A DNA stretch of 64,000 nucleotides, taken from positions 1-64,000 of the forward strand of contig NZ_CP145732.1 of the NCBI RefSeq assembly GCF_036884845.1. The letters run 5' to 3'. Each line of letters begins with the position of its first letter. Position 1 is the stretch's first letter. A program made the position numbers and the translations under genes. This DNA is from Pseudomonas sp. MAG733B. Lineage in GTDB: Bacteria > Pseudomonadota > Gammaproteobacteria > Pseudomonadales > Pseudomonadaceae. Below are positions 18,025 to 59,214 of the stretch, piece by piece. A model generated the notes under the pieces. It was not told where the DNA came from. It ran no database searches and saw nothing but the letters and a program-made list of their open reading frames with translations.

Positions 18025-18912
18025 ATGCAAGCCGCCAACCCGCGCCGCGGGTACATATTGGGCCTGAGTGCCTACATCATCTGGGGACTTTTCCCGCTCT
18101 ACTTCAAAGCCATCGCCAACGTGCCCGCCGTGGAAATCATCATCCACCGCGTGCTGTGGTCGGCTCTGTTTGGCGCCTTGCTGCTGATGGTCTGGAAGCA
18201 CCCGGGTTGGTGGCGCGAGTTGCGGGATAACCCGAAACGACTGGCGATCCTGGCCTTGAGCGGCACGTTGATCGCGGCCAACTGGCTGACTTACGTCTGG
18301 TCGGTGAACAACGGACGGATGCTTGAAGCCAGTCTCGGCTACTACATCAACCCGCTGGTCAACGTGCTGCTAGGTATGTTGATCCTCGGTGAACGGCTGC
18401 GCCGCATGCAATGGATTGCGGTGGGCCTGGCGGCCGTCGGCGTGGTGCAGCAAGTGTGGCAAGTCGGCAGCCTGCCGTGGGTGTCGCTGGTGCTGGCGCT
18501 GACCTTCGGTTTCTACGGGCTGATTCGCAAGCAGGCACCGGTCAAGGCGCTGCCGGGGCTGGTGGTGGAAACCTGGATGCTGGTGCCGATCGCCATCGCC
18601 TGGTTGCTGTTCAATCCGACGGCCCACAGTGCCCAGGCCGAATTCTGGACCACGTCCGAAGCCTGGTGGCTGGTGGCGGCCGGGCCGGTCACGCTGGTGC
18701 CGCTGGTTTGCTTCAACGCCGCTGCCCGGCATTTGCCCTACACCACGCTCGGATTTCTCCAGTACCTGGCGCCAACGTTGGTGCTGCTGCAAGCCGTGCT
18801 GCTGTTTAACGAGCACTTGTCGTCCAGTACGCTGGTGGCCTTCATGTTTATCTGGGCCGGCCTGGCGGTTTACAGCGTCGATGCGTGGATAAGTCTGCGC
18901 CGTCGCAGCTGA
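18025..18912 (+). CDS. rarD: RarD-family EamA transporter
   Basis: The 295-residue membrane protein has ten predicted transmembrane segments in two EamA halves. It begins GYILGLSAYIIWGLFPLYFK, which is characteristic of RarD. The family is linked to chloramphenicol sensitivity, but the natural substrate is unknown. AAGGATT precedes the ATG. The DnaA-box repeat region lies immediately downstream. Confidence 0.9.
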   Translation: MQAANPRRGYILGLSAYIIWGLFPLYFKAIANVPAVEIIIHRVLWSALFGALLLMVWKHPGWWRELRDNPKRLAILALSGTLIAANWLTYVWSVNNGRMLEASLGYYINPLVNVLLGMLILGERLRRMQWIAVGLAAVGVVQQVWQVGSLPWVSLVLALTFGFYGLIRKQAPVKALPGLVVETWMLVPIAIAWLLFNPTAHSAQAEFWTTSEAWWLVAAGPVTLVPLVCFNAAARHLPYTTLGFLQYLAPTLVLLQAVLLFNEHLSSSTLVAFMFIWAGLAVYSVDAWISLRRRS

Positions 18913-19127
18913 TCAAAAAACGCACAAACCTCTACAAGCCACGTTTCCCGTGGCCTGTAGAGTTCCTTCCCAAGGTTATCCACAGCCTGATCCCCGGCGT
19001 TTGTGCGCAAGTTACTGAAACTGCTGGTTTTTTGATCAATTCCTGAAAAGCTCCGGCCGACGTGGCCTGGCGGGCTGTCTCTACAGGTTATCCACAGGCG
19101 GGTGCACGTTTAACTTGGATAACCCGA
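18913..19127. repeat. Two units of a DnaA-box-bearing intergenic repeat
   Basis: The gap between rarD and the GcvR-like gene holds two perfect TTATCCACA boxes (18976-18984 and 19088-19096). Each is preceded, exactly 24 bases before the box, by GGCCTG at the right side of a small hairpin. One hairpin is GCCACG/CGTGGC and the other is GGCC/GGCC. The second unit also has GATCAA exactly 54 bases before its box, as in the unit at 57470. The same module recurs four times at 57.2-57.85 kb. No coding sequence or T-rich terminator is seen. Confidence 0.75.
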
Positions 19128-55790: not shown

Positions 55791-57086
55791 ATGGACGTCA
55801 CTACTACCCTGAGCCTGGGCGATCCGCTGGAACCCGCACGCAAGGCCACCGCGCAAATGCTGCAAGAGCGCGAGCGCACGTTCTCGCTGCCGCAGCCGTT
55901 TTACTCGGACGAGCGCCTGTTTGATATCGACATGCAGGAAATCTTTCAGAAAGAGTGGTTGATCGCCGGCATGACCTGCGAAATCCCAACCAAGGGCAAC
56001 TACCTGACCCTGCAAGTGGGCAAGAACCCGATCATCGTGATTCGCGGCGCCGAAGGCGTGGTGCATGCGTTCCACAACGTCTGCCGCCACCGTGGCTCGC
56101 GCCTGTGCACCAGCGAAAAAGGCAAGGTCGCCAAACTGGTCTGCCACTACCACCAGTGGACGTACGAACTCGACGGCCGCCTGCTGTTCGCCGGCACCGA
56201 AATGGGTGCCGACTTCGACATGAAGCAGTACGGCCTCAAACCGGTGAACGTGAAGACCGCTGGCGGCTACATCTTCATCAGCCTGGCGGAGAACCCGCCG
56301 GCCATCGATGACTTCCTGTCGACGCTCAGCCATTACATGGAACCGTACGACATGGAAAACACCAAGGTGGCGATCACCACCACCTTGATGGAAAAGGCCA
56401 ACTGGAAACTGGTGCTGGAAAACAACCGCGAGTGCTACCACTGCAACGCGTCGCACCCGGAACTATTGAAAACCCTGCTCGAATGGGACGACGTCACCGA
56501 CCCGCGCGCCGATCAGGCGTTCAAGGACCACGTGGCCGCCTCCGCCGCTGCCTGGGAAGCCGAGAAGATCCCTTACGCCCACGCCAGCTTCGGCCTGCGC
56601 AACCGCATCGTGCGCATGCCGCTGCTCAAGGGCACCGTGTCGATGACCCTGGACGGCAAACAGGGCTGCGCCAAGCTCATGGGCCGCATCAAGAATCCGG
56701 ACCTGGGCTCGATGCGCATCCTGCACCTGCCGCACTCCTGGAACCACTGCATGGGCGACCACATCATCGTGTTCACCGTGTGGCCGATCAGCGCGCAGGA
56801 AACCATGGTCACCACCAAGTGGGTCGTGCACAAGGACGCCGTCGAAGGCGTGGACTACGACGTCGACCGCATGCGCCAGGTGTGGGACGCCACCAACGAC
56901 CAGGACCGTCGCCTGGCCGAAGAGAACCAGCGCGGGATCAACTCCACCGCTTACCAGCCTGGGCCTTACTCCAAGACTTATGAGTTTGGTGTGGTGAACT
57001 TTGTGGATTGGTACAGCGAGCGTTTGCTGAGCAATCTGGGGGCTGAGCCTGCGCCTTACCTCAAGGGTGTTCCAGTTCAGGGTTAA
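55791..57086 (+). CDS. gbcA: Glycine betaine demethylase oxygenase subunit
   Basis: The 431-residue Rieske non-heme iron oxygenase removes one methyl group from glycine betaine, giving dimethylglycine and formaldehyde. Rieske ligands are Cys98, His100, Cys118 and His121 (CRHRGSRLC, CHYHQW). The mononuclear iron site lies in NNRECYHCNASHPEL. GAGG precedes the ATG at 55791. The reductase gbcB is divergent. This is the entry step of the pathway encoded across 42-64 kb. Confidence 0.96.
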   Translation: MDVTTTLSLGDPLEPARKATAQMLQERERTFSLPQPFYSDERLFDIDMQEIFQKEWLIAGMTCEIPTKGNYLTLQVGKNPIIVIRGAEGVVHAFHNVCRHRGSRLCTSEKGKVAKLVCHYHQWTYELDGRLLFAGTEMGADFDMKQYGLKPVNVKTAGGYIFISLAENPPAIDDFLSTLSHYMEPYDMENTKVAITTTLMEKANWKLVLENNRECYHCNASHPELLKTLLEWDDVTDPRADQAFKDHVAASAAAWEAEKIPYAHASFGLRNRIVRMPLLKGTVSMTLDGKQGCAKLMGRIKNPDLGSMRILHLPHSWNHCMGDHIIVFTVWPISAQETMVTTKWVVHKDAVEGVDYDVDRMRQVWDATNDQDRRLAEENQRGINSTAYQPGPYSKTYEFGVVNFVDWYSERLLSNLGAEPAPYLKGVPVQG

Positions 57087-57099
57087 ATCAAAAGGAAAA

Positions 57100-57196
57100 G
57101 CTTCGCGAGCAAGCCCGCTCCCACAGTGAATCGGTGTCATTCACAACTTCTGTGAACGACACGGATAAATGTGGGAGCGGGCTTGCTCGCGAAAGC
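57100..57196. repeat. REP doublet, class GTGGGAGCGGGCTTGCTCGC
   Basis: Inverted REP units lie 14 bases after gbcA. The spacer holds a further inverted repeat (GTGTCATTCACA/TGTGAACGACAC). Confidence 0.92.
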
Positions 57197-57220: not shown

Positions 57221-57853
57221 TGTACGAAATATGATCTATTTCGTTCCACGCTATACCCCCCGCGCCTCCCAGCCTTCCGCAAACAAGTTATCCACACCTC
57301 CACCCACAGCAAATGGGGACAACTGTGGAAACACGCAAAACTTTCTACACAGAAACTAAAGAAAATCCGTGACTTATCCAAATGCATGATTTTCAACGGC
57401 GCCTGTTCATTTATTGATCAATCTCCTGCGAGCCACGTATTACATGGCCTGTAGCGTATGACAAACACCTTATCCACAGAAGCGCCAACAGACTTTGGGG
57501 GCAACTTCCAAAGCGCTGTGGAAAACCGCTGCAAGCCGCGATTTTTCTGCTCTTGAGCGCGGGATGACGGGTCAAACCGATGTTTTGGTCATTTATTAAC
57601 CAGAAGCTTGAAAGCTACGGTTTATAAGGCCTTCAGCGGTAAGCGAACATCTTATCCACAGAAGCGCCAACAGAGATTGGGGGCAACTCTTGGTCCCTGT
57701 GTGGATTAATTTTCTGAAAAAAGCTTTGGAAAACCAGAAGTTACGCTGATTGTTTTTTGATCTAACGGCTACAGCCCCCTATTTCCCTGGGCTGCAGCAA
57801 TGGGCAAACATGTTATCCACAGAAGCGCCAACAGGGATTGTGGGTAAACAGGG
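57221..57853. repeat. Four-unit array of DnaA-box-bearing repeats
   Basis: This non-coding stretch has four perfect TTATCCACA boxes at 57288, 57470, 57652 and 57813, spaced 182, 182 and 161 bases. The last three are followed by GAAGCGCCAACAG and then a G-rich GGGGCAAC-like segment. A GGCCTG-like hexamer starts exactly 24 bases before the boxes at 57470, 57652 and 57813. Near-matches are TTATCCAAA (57374), TGTGGAAAA (57517) and TGTGGATTA (57700). The first unit is more diverged. It shares the module found at 18913-19127. The region also contains A/T-rich stretches and no plausible gene. Confidence 0.8.
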
Positions 57854-59053
57854 TCAAACCTTGTTAAAACACGACCGCCCCGCCTCGATATCTAGGTTTA
57901 ACTCAAAGTCGTCGAATGCACGCCACCCGAGCAAGATCGATGGCACGTAGCGCCCAAGCAGCATGGACGCAGGAATGGTGAACCCCGGATAGTATTTGTA
58001 GGTGAGCGCCAAGGTGTTGCCCGGCAACTTCAACACGCCTTTGAAGGTCTGGTAATGCTGATCGGTAGCGTTGGCCGGTGAGTTGCCCGGGGTCATCGAC
58101 GTGACGACATTGACCTGAGGCCCCGGAGCAGCCGAGGTCAGGTAATCGACATTGCCGGTATCGACAATCGCGAACGTCGCCCGGTTGTCCAGCCGCGCAG
58201 GGATGGTCAGCCGCTGATTGATATCCAGGCGGGTGTAGGTAATCGGCGAATCGCACCGCACGGCGCGCGCGGGGTTGAGCTCCAGGGTTTTCCTGCTGAT
58301 TTTCAACGGCCCGAGCTTGCTGATCAGATCGAGCCCCAGCAAGTTGTCGCGATCACTGACAAACACCAGGACGTTCCTGAACTCACTGGCGCCGATGCTC
58401 AAGGCGTCAAGGACGCCAAGTTTGGCAGCCAGGTCGCTCTCGCCGTAAAACGTGCTGTAGGCGTAGTGGGAGTCGGTCAGTAACCTGATCCCCATCAGCT
58501 TGGCGGTGGCGTAGTTGATCCGGGTTTGCGGGGCGCCGGTATCGACAATGAATCGTACTGAGTGACCGTTTGCCGCTTTGACGTCGATGAACGGCAGTAC
58601 CTCGTCGGAGACGAAATGTTCGCTGGAGTACGGGTGAATCGTCAGCACTTCACGCTGCCGGCTTCTTCTCACCGAGAAATCGCCGGTCGTTCTCAGCGTC
58701 GACAGCGATTCATCGCCGAACATGGAAAACAGCATTTTCAACTCGGCATTGGCTTCGATTGCTCGGGCGTGTTTGCGCTGGGTCGCCACGAAGTAGTCGG
58801 GAAGCTGATTGGCCGCTTTGAGCTCGAACATCCGGGCAACCACGGATACGGAGCAATTGAGGTTGTTGGCCGCATCCAGTACTTGCTCACAGCGCTGGCG
58901 TATCTGCGCCAGCGAGGCTTTCTGCCCCGCCTCTGACGCCAGCCACCGATCAAAATCCTGCTCAGGCGCTTCCGTCCGGGGAGCAGACATCAATCCCGAA
59001 GACGCGCACATGGCGCATGCAAAGAGCAGCAAAGACCGACAGACAGCCTTCAT
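57854..59053 (-). CDS. Exported aspartyl protease-like protein with two retropepsin domains
   Basis: The 399-residue protein has a signal peptide (to about residue 20-23, after LLLFACAMCASSG). A helical region follows (about 30-150), then two DTG motifs, FIVDTGAPQTRI (Asp171) and AIVDTGNVDYL (Asp298). Each is followed by a hydrophobic-Gly element (LLGLDLISKLG and ILLGWRAFDDF), so each half looks like a complete retropepsin-fold domain. That allows a pepsin-like active site within one chain. The start at 59053 is chosen for its signal peptide; an ATG at 59068 is possible and neither has a strong ribosome-binding site. Substrate unknown. Confidence 0.78.
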   Translation of the reverse strand: MKAVCRSLLLFACAMCASSGLMSAPRTEAPEQDFDRWLASEAGQKASLAQIRQRCEQVLDAANNLNCSVSVVARMFELKAANQLPDYFVATQRKHARAIEANAELKMLFSMFGDESLSTLRTTGDFSVRRSRQREVLTIHPYSSEHFVSDEVLPFIDVKAANGHSVRFIVDTGAPQTRINYATAKLMGIRLLTDSHYAYSTFYGESDLAAKLGVLDALSIGASEFRNVLVFVSDRDNLLGLDLISKLGPLKISRKTLELNPARAVRCDSPITYTRLDINQRLTIPARLDNRATFAIVDTGNVDYLTSAAPGPQVNVVTSMTPGNSPANATDQHYQTFKGVLKLPGNTLALTYKYYPGFTIPASMLLGRYVPSILLGWRAFDDFELNLDIEAGRSCFNKV

Positions 59054-59214
59054 ATTCAACCCATTCATAAACCTGAGTTTTATGAGCAAGCGCTGAATGT
59101 CTGAGATCCCGGAACCGTGCTGCACCCTTAAACAGCGCACAGAAAACTGTAGCTCACCGACAGGCGAGCCGAGAGATTGTGGATAACGTTGCCTGTGCAA
59201 TGCCTGAAACGGGA

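Follow-up and report, generated by a model that had tools for sequence, protein, structure and literature searches.

DARS elements are an already known kind of chromosomal element (all papers are cited here for excerpts of their text). In Escherichia coli, DARS1 and DARS2 carry three DnaA boxes at the same spacing with box I opposed (PMC5742627), and in the model for their action ADP-DnaA molecules on boxes I and II contact each other head to head and lose their ADP (PMC8682772, PMC5742627). DARS1 is 101 bp long, including a flank of about 50 bp that promotes the release of ADP in vitro (PMC5742627). Fis takes part in DARS2 (PMC4245941, PMC8682772), and its binding consensus is given as GnnYAnnnnnTRnnC (PMC8682772). 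Published statements on the conservation of DARS concern relatives of E. coli within the gammaproteobacteria, including Vibrio and Shewanella (PMC4245941, PMC8682772, PMC6090056). Within the open-licence literature (titles and abstract beginnings) we found no report of DARS in Pseudomonas and no paper on DnaA recharging in this genus, and the excerpts of PMC10218098 and PMC4285127 do not report Pseudomonas DARS. Here we compare these systems with an array of DnaA boxes in Pseudomonas sp. MAG733B, located in the 64,000-nt stretch of DNA that was analysed as a whole (the window).

The array downstream of gbcA

The original prediction described four perfect TTATCCACA sequences at 57288, 57470, 57652 and 57813, spaced 182, 182 and 161 bp, and all four are present on the + strand at exactly these distances. 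The gene-free gap in which they were said to lie is also real, at a length of 767 bp rather than 766 bp, from the gbcA stop at 57086 to the next gene at 57854. The common tail of three units proved to be GAAGCGCCAACAG after boxes 2 to 4, and the GGCCTG-like hexamer 24 bp before the box was found as GGCCTG, GGCCTT and GGGCTG at these same boxes; unit 1 has GCCTCC in its place. TTATCCACA is the high-affinity DnaA box of P. putida (PMC4285127). The window contains 11 copies against 0.20 expected, a number reached in none of 100 shuffles, and the repeats of the array are far above chance.

Three models were used in the searches. R1 has 131 positions and was built from 42 units of the window genus only (alignment A1), 10 from the MAG733B genome and 32 from 8 of the 29 best orthologues of the array. 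R2 is a 39-position model of the core; the core set (A3) comprised 88 distinct cores among the R1 matches, of which 84 are of equal length (39 nt; 80 of these were taken), 3 are one nucleotide shorter and 1 is two longer. R3 was made of 69 elements (A5; 69 of 78 taken) and contains no rows from the window or from MG1655; apart from L156, whose genome is of the same genus, all of its elements (68) come from other genera. All model E-values are rough, as the calibration was shortened. The features at the array are as follows.

55791-57086, + strand: gbcA, glycine betaine monooxygenase oxygenase subunit (NF058607, 805.5 bits, cut-off 670); left neighbour, outside the element
57222-57322, + strand: unit 1 (R1 69.2 bits; R3, without window rows, 44.8 bits); Fis-type site 57222-57236, with the Fis consensus; box III TTATCCACA 57288-57296; box II CCACCCACA 57300-57308; box I, inverted, 57314-57322
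57405-57504, + strand: unit 2 (R1 89.5 bits; R3 52.0 bits); Fis-type site 57405-57419; inverted repeat about 57426-57454; box III 57470-57478; box II 57482-57490; box I, inverted, 57496-57504
57587-57686, + strand: unit 3 (R1 88.8 bits; R3 47.6 bits); Fis-type site 57587-57601; inverted repeat about 57607-57636; box III 57652-57660; box II 57664-57672; box I, inverted, 57678-57686
57748-57847, + strand: unit 4 (R1 84.5 bits; R3 46.1 bits); Fis-type site 57748-57762; inverted repeat about 57769-57797; box III 57813-57821; box II 57825-57833; box I TTACCCACA, inverted, 57839-57847
57854-59200, - strand: aspartyl-protease-like gene (PF13975, 51.2 bits, cut-off 28.2); right neighbour, convergent with gbcA, outside the element

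Several of these features go beyond the original prediction: unit 1 is a full member by R1, every perfect box is followed by two more boxes in fixed register, and the units contain a Fis-type site. The array unit is thus a stretch of about 100 bp (100-101 bp from the G of the Fis-type site to the end of box I in the window units) in which a Fis-type site and an imperfect inverted repeat precede three DnaA boxes. Three bp beyond the perfect TTATCCACA comes a weaker box of the same orientation, and an inverted box lies another 5 bp on, giving a core geometry of 9-3-9-5-9 with the last box inverted. Units 2 to 4 have a weak box II (GCGCCAACA, 4 of 9 matches) and a moderate box I (6, 6 and 8 of 9 matches). 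The Fis-type site is 15 nt long, starts with G, ends with C and is rich in A/T in the middle. It begins 65-66 bp before the perfect box, and the inverted repeat sits between this site and box III, with the GGCCTG hexamer included in its right arm.

We scored the Fis-type site with GNNYRNNWNNYRNNC (A/T-rich centre), which we take to be a wider form of the Fis consensus, and this pattern is present in 10 of the 11 units that we found in the MAG733B genome. Among 127 R1 matches (alignment A2), the 120 rows with letters at this place show the full consensus in 107 cases and the G..C ends in all 120, although these rows were chosen by R1. Because R1 includes the Fis-type site and so biases this count, the site was also tested at 28 loci of other orders picked by the core alone (leaving out L344, which belongs to the window's own family). 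Here 10 loci have the full consensus starting at -66 and 3 have it at -65 or -64, compared with a mean background of 0.067 per offset, and 15 of the 28 are without a consensus at that place. The G..C ends alone are found at -66 in 14 loci and at -65 in 7. Judging from the consensus, Fis would be expected to bind this site.

We read the inverted repeat as an imperfect dyad symmetry. An RNA hairpin was considered for it and rejected, since pairing in 62.0% of cells, while well above slid versions (31-42%), is barely above column shuffles (59.4%); Rfam gave nothing at gathering threshold in the window. Larger spacing changes in the array are near one helical turn (161/150, 182/193, 182/172 and 182/170), but we do not put forward helical phasing, as a periodogram over 69 spacings, nearly all from other arrays and not independent of each other, was equally high or higher away from 10.5 bp. 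Two other features lie nearby. Directly after gbcA, at window 57102-57193, there is a perfect 24-nt inverted repeat with arms 44 nt apart, which resembles a Pseudomonas REP pair. Five further perfect TTATCCACA near the array (55033, 59178, 60233, 61183 and 61442) are without DARS geometry, and all are inside long open reading frames.

Comparison with DARS1, DARS2 and datA of E. coli

Read on the other strand, the core becomes box I-5-box II-3-box III with box I opposed, which equals the MG1655 cores of both DARS1 (TTATCCACT ATTCC TGTGGATAA CCA TGTGTATTA) and DARS2 (TTATTCACC TTTTC TGTGGATAG AGT TGTGAAGAA). Over 16 kb of E. coli sequence, R2 places the DARS1 core as match 1 and the DARS2 core as match 2, at scores for which 0.009 and 0.045 matches are expected per E. 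coli genome (matrix, uniform background). Over 24 kb, these two sites are also the two best matches of R3, with DARS1 aligned across 89 nt (31.1 bits, E 3.7e-9) and DARS2 across 68 nt (16.6 bits). No row of R3 is close to DARS1, and the best local row match is confined to the core end. The genus-built R1 does not recover E. coli DARS1 or DARS2. The original prediction had offered an undescribed kind of element as one possibility, and box geometry together with sequence instead places the array with E. coli DARS1 and DARS2. Another of its suggestions, a DnaA-titrating locus, is not the best reading, as R3 matches datA with only 10.5 bits over 19 nt.

The likeness is closest to DARS1 (bioD-uvrB intergenic, 101 bp), to which the units are homologous in sequence: the core spacing is identical, box I is opposed, and the match across 89 nt includes much of the flank. 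In a flank profile without the core columns, the DARS1 flank ranks 6 of 31,574 positions; its score is below zero (-3.0 bits) and peaks sharply, only in the right register. The DARS2 flank is unmatched by this profile (-23.6 bits, rank 800), and we therefore file the units as DARS1-type. There are also differences from DARS1. It is a single such locus in E. coli, whereas MAG733B has four tandem units and seven more at four other loci; it has only the G..C ends of the Fis-type site, whereas the full consensus is found in 10 of the 11 MAG733B units; and its perfect box is box II, whereas in the Pseudomonas units this is usually box III.

DARS2 (rppH-mutH intergenic, 455 bp) shares the core geometry, and its core is recovered by both R2 and R3, but its flank is unmatched and does not contain even the G..C ends of the Fis-type site, the sole full Fis consensus by the same pattern between -400 and +100 being at -125. 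The IHF sites of DARS2 have no clear counterpart in the array: a search for the full IHF consensus gave no match in the window array and had one in 1 of 29 orthologues. Its absence is weak evidence because the same pattern also misses the MG1655 DARS2 region, although it finds the datA site. datA resembles the array as a non-coding cluster of DnaA boxes with two same-orientation boxes 162 bp apart, but it has no DARS core, and the core and full models match it over about 20 nt at most. It depends on IHF (PMC4585315), and while same-orientation boxes are present in our array, the flanked IHF site that characterizes datA is not, as the consensus is absent from the array.

Two further systems were compared by description only. 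In Vibrio cholerae, DARS-like sequences have been named at the uvrB and mutH places (PMC6090056), whereas the Pseudomonas loci adjoin other genes. Bacillus subtilis has several DnaA-box clusters outside oriC, six in number, but lacks DARS loci according to the excerpt of the same source (PMC13220808).

Units in the genome and in other gammaproteobacteria

The composite pattern extends outside the array, as a dispersed element would. R1 finds 11 units at five loci in the MAG733B genome with E 2.8e-12 or better, the next match having an E-value of 0.015. Four units are in the array and two at 18.9 kb, with two more at 1.138 Mb, two at 1.280 Mb and one at 6.380 Mb. The core model R2 recovers the same 11 units, the lowest scoring 26.1 bits, before a drop to 18.7 bits, and the R3 scores of the units are 44.7-54 bits. 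The pair at 18.9 kb, which had not been part of the original prediction, is also within the window:

18911-19010, + strand: unit a of the second window locus (R1 53.1 bits; R3 54.0 bits); Fis-type site 18911-18925; box III 18976-18984; box II 18988-18996; box I, inverted, 19002-19010
19023-19122, + strand: unit b of the second window locus (R1 50.9 bits; R3 45.0 bits); Fis-type place 19023-19037; box III 19088-19096; box II 19100-19108; box I, inverted, 19114-19122

This second locus sits between a convergent rarD and ACT-domain gene, so that both window loci are intergenic. GGCCTG is at -24 in both units of the 18911-19122 pair, and unit b has kept the G..C ends at its Fis-type place while the full consensus has not been kept.

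The register of the boxes is conserved throughout the genome: the opposed box I and the 3/5 bp spacing are present in all 11 units, and box III is perfect in 10 of them. When 114 perfect boxes (restricted to those in retrieved loci, with 80 nt or more to either locus end) were ranked by a geometry score, the composite units with a perfect box, 10 in all, took precisely the top places, with scores of 10-14 of 18 against 9 for the next and a median of 4. In this same test, offsets other than the DARS ones gave higher mean matches, and the DARS offset (-,26) came first only by its count of sites with at least 6 matches (10). A weak lone core at 5436563-5436597 (G000:C1; R2 18.7 bits, R1 17.2 bits) is perhaps a decayed or atypical unit. 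As a separate observation, TTATCCACAG has 88 copies genome-wide. The region around dnaA (507 kb) from 480 to 540 kb holds 24 of them, and a stretch of 2.8 Mb opposite the origin, from 2.383 to 5.198 Mb, has none; among the sites whose context was read, many look coding. In E. coli, DnaA boxes crowd near oriC (PMC12371093).

The array itself is found in relatives. A 601-bp array query matches 95 of 119 genus genomes, MAG733B included, at E 1e-3 or better (24 have no match), and in 43 of the 119 the match covers at least 545 bp. Many of the weaker matches cover a single unit and may stem from other loci. The box spacings are 182/182/161 or 182/182/150 in 21 of the 29 best orthologues; in another the fourth box has lost its perfect match, and the remaining seven deviate in at least one spacing. 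Within 1.5 kb of the array, gbcA is found in 13 of 29 orthologues and a GNAT gene in 14, which indicates that the array outlasts its neighbours.

We sampled 24 single-contig genomes for unit positions, 13 of which, MAG733B included, were chosen as array carriers, and located dnaA with a family model that matches DnaA residues 429-491. MAG733B and all 12 of the relatives so chosen have 11 units each, and G113, the other same-genus genome among the 24, has 9. Among the matches listed, 11 of the 12 chosen relatives have the loci in the same order and orientation as MAG733B, the sole exception (G029) being rearranged; all 11 units are among the matches listed in 6 of the 13 array-bearing genomes, and none are for G171. 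Measured from dnaA as a share of the genome, the five loci of these genomes, as far as they are listed, lie at conserved distances of about -12 to -15%, -7 to -10%, -7 to -9% for the array, +9 to +12% and +11 to +14%. The replication-linked, dispersed element of the original prediction is well supported by the 11 units at five loci, the matches in 95 of 119 genus genomes and these fixed positions around dnaA. Two of the outcomes named as refuting that prediction, a composite pattern missing elsewhere and an array missing from relatives, were put to the test, and both results favoured it. Outside the genus, where positions come partly from rows of the family and order searches, they vary, and several units are 33-44% of the genome from dnaA (G200, G237, G239, G135 and G209).

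The units reach far beyond the genus. In the family they are found in 58 of 59 genomes and all 19 genera, with 0-31 per genome and a median of 6; in the order 66 of 76 genomes match; and in the class 59 of 114 genomes match with R1. With the core alone, 142 of 185 gammaproteobacterial genomes match and 43 do not, and the count of cores outside the order is 1-6 per genome. Species among 80 listed loci, of at least 120 in a pattern scan, include Pseudomonas fluorescens, putida, syringae, cichorii and citronellolis as well as Stutzerimonas stutzeri. Runs of eight or nine units within 3 kb occur in other Pseudomonadaceae genera (L139, L150, L152 and L153), and certain spacings, among them 112, 124, 173 and 183 bp, are seen repeatedly in different arrays.

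Candidate roles of the array

We consider it likely that the array consists of four DARS1-type elements in tandem, at which DnaA exchanges its ADP for ATP, probably with Fis taking part. Genes for both DnaA and Hda (the latter with 291.7 bits, cut-off 194.8) are present in the genome, so ATP-DnaA should become ADP-DnaA after initiation and would have to be regenerated. In the mechanism that we propose from the layout of the sites, DnaA would bind the strong box III first and from there fill the weaker boxes II and I. Box III is 3 bp from box II in the same direction in the genome units, and E. coli DnaA prefers 3-bp same-direction spacing for pairs (PMC11317965). Because box I faces box II, two ADP-DnaA molecules would then meet head to head as in E. 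coli DARS, after which ADP could leave and the freed DnaA bind ATP. The flank would probably be bent by a Fis-type protein at the site 65-66 bp ahead of box III, which would tune recharging to growth. Binding by DnaA and Fis, the release of ADP and the role in initiation timing are all predicted here by analogy with E. coli.

The main doubt on the DARS reading comes from units 2 to 4, which may bind DnaA without working as DARS because their boxes II and I are weak or moderate, and which could serve titration instead. An array acting like datA would gather ATP-DnaA and hydrolyse its ATP, or lower free DnaA once the locus has been copied, and its place on the origin side, 450 kb from dnaA (6.8% of the MAG733B genome), would suit this, as would the shared orientation of its four strong boxes. 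In the E. coli datA region, too, two perfect or near-perfect same-orientation boxes, presumably datA boxes 2 and 3, are 162 bp apart, close to the spacings of 161 and 150 seen here. DnaA binding alone could matter, since DARS1, DARS2 and datA supply much of the titration power in E. coli (PMC12371093). An opposed box I in fixed register is needless for titration, yet three of its bases are invariant in all 42 units of A1. Together with the roughly 20 nt to which matches with datA are limited and the failure to find the IHF consensus between the boxes, this leads us to regard a datA-like or titrating role as unlikely.

Two further explanations seem to us much less probable. The position of the array directly after gbcA and the fact that DnaA also regulates transcription (PMC11317965) could point to DnaA-dependent control of neighbour genes such as gbcA, or to a chromosome-organising site, but the array is between convergent genes and has outlasted those genes in its orthologues, which makes such a role improbable. 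That DnaA boxes occur here with an A/T tract might even suggest a second origin or a decayed mobile replicon. We give this scarcely any credence: the boxes before dnaA, at the presumed oriC, score only 11.4 bits with R2, the four neighbour genes scanned are metabolic, protease-like or acetyltransferase genes, and the relatives, the rearranged G029 apart, share the five loci instead of having them scattered.

Returning to recharging by DARS1-type elements, the tandem multi-locus form, the Fis-type site inside a 100-bp unit and the class-wide reach are new as far as our literature searches go. Tentatively, and with slightly less than even confidence, we advance a wider view, in which DARS would be an ancestral gammaproteobacterial device of about 100 bp (Fis site, spacer and three-box core) that is not restricted to the kin of E. 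coli, and in which the Pseudomonadaceae would have made of it a multi-copy system in which ATP-DnaA is set by how many loci there are and where they lie, with the gbcA array as the largest station in the MAG733B genome. On this view, the 11 units at five loci on both sides of oriC in array-bearing members of the genus, and the up to 31 per genome in the family, would be parts of that system. Because the units are defined 100-bp targets at known places, the DnaA cycle would become testable in Pseudomonas and in many other gammaproteobacteria, and the tandem arrays with conserved positions on both arms would allow a test of whether DARS dosage sets the time of initiation.
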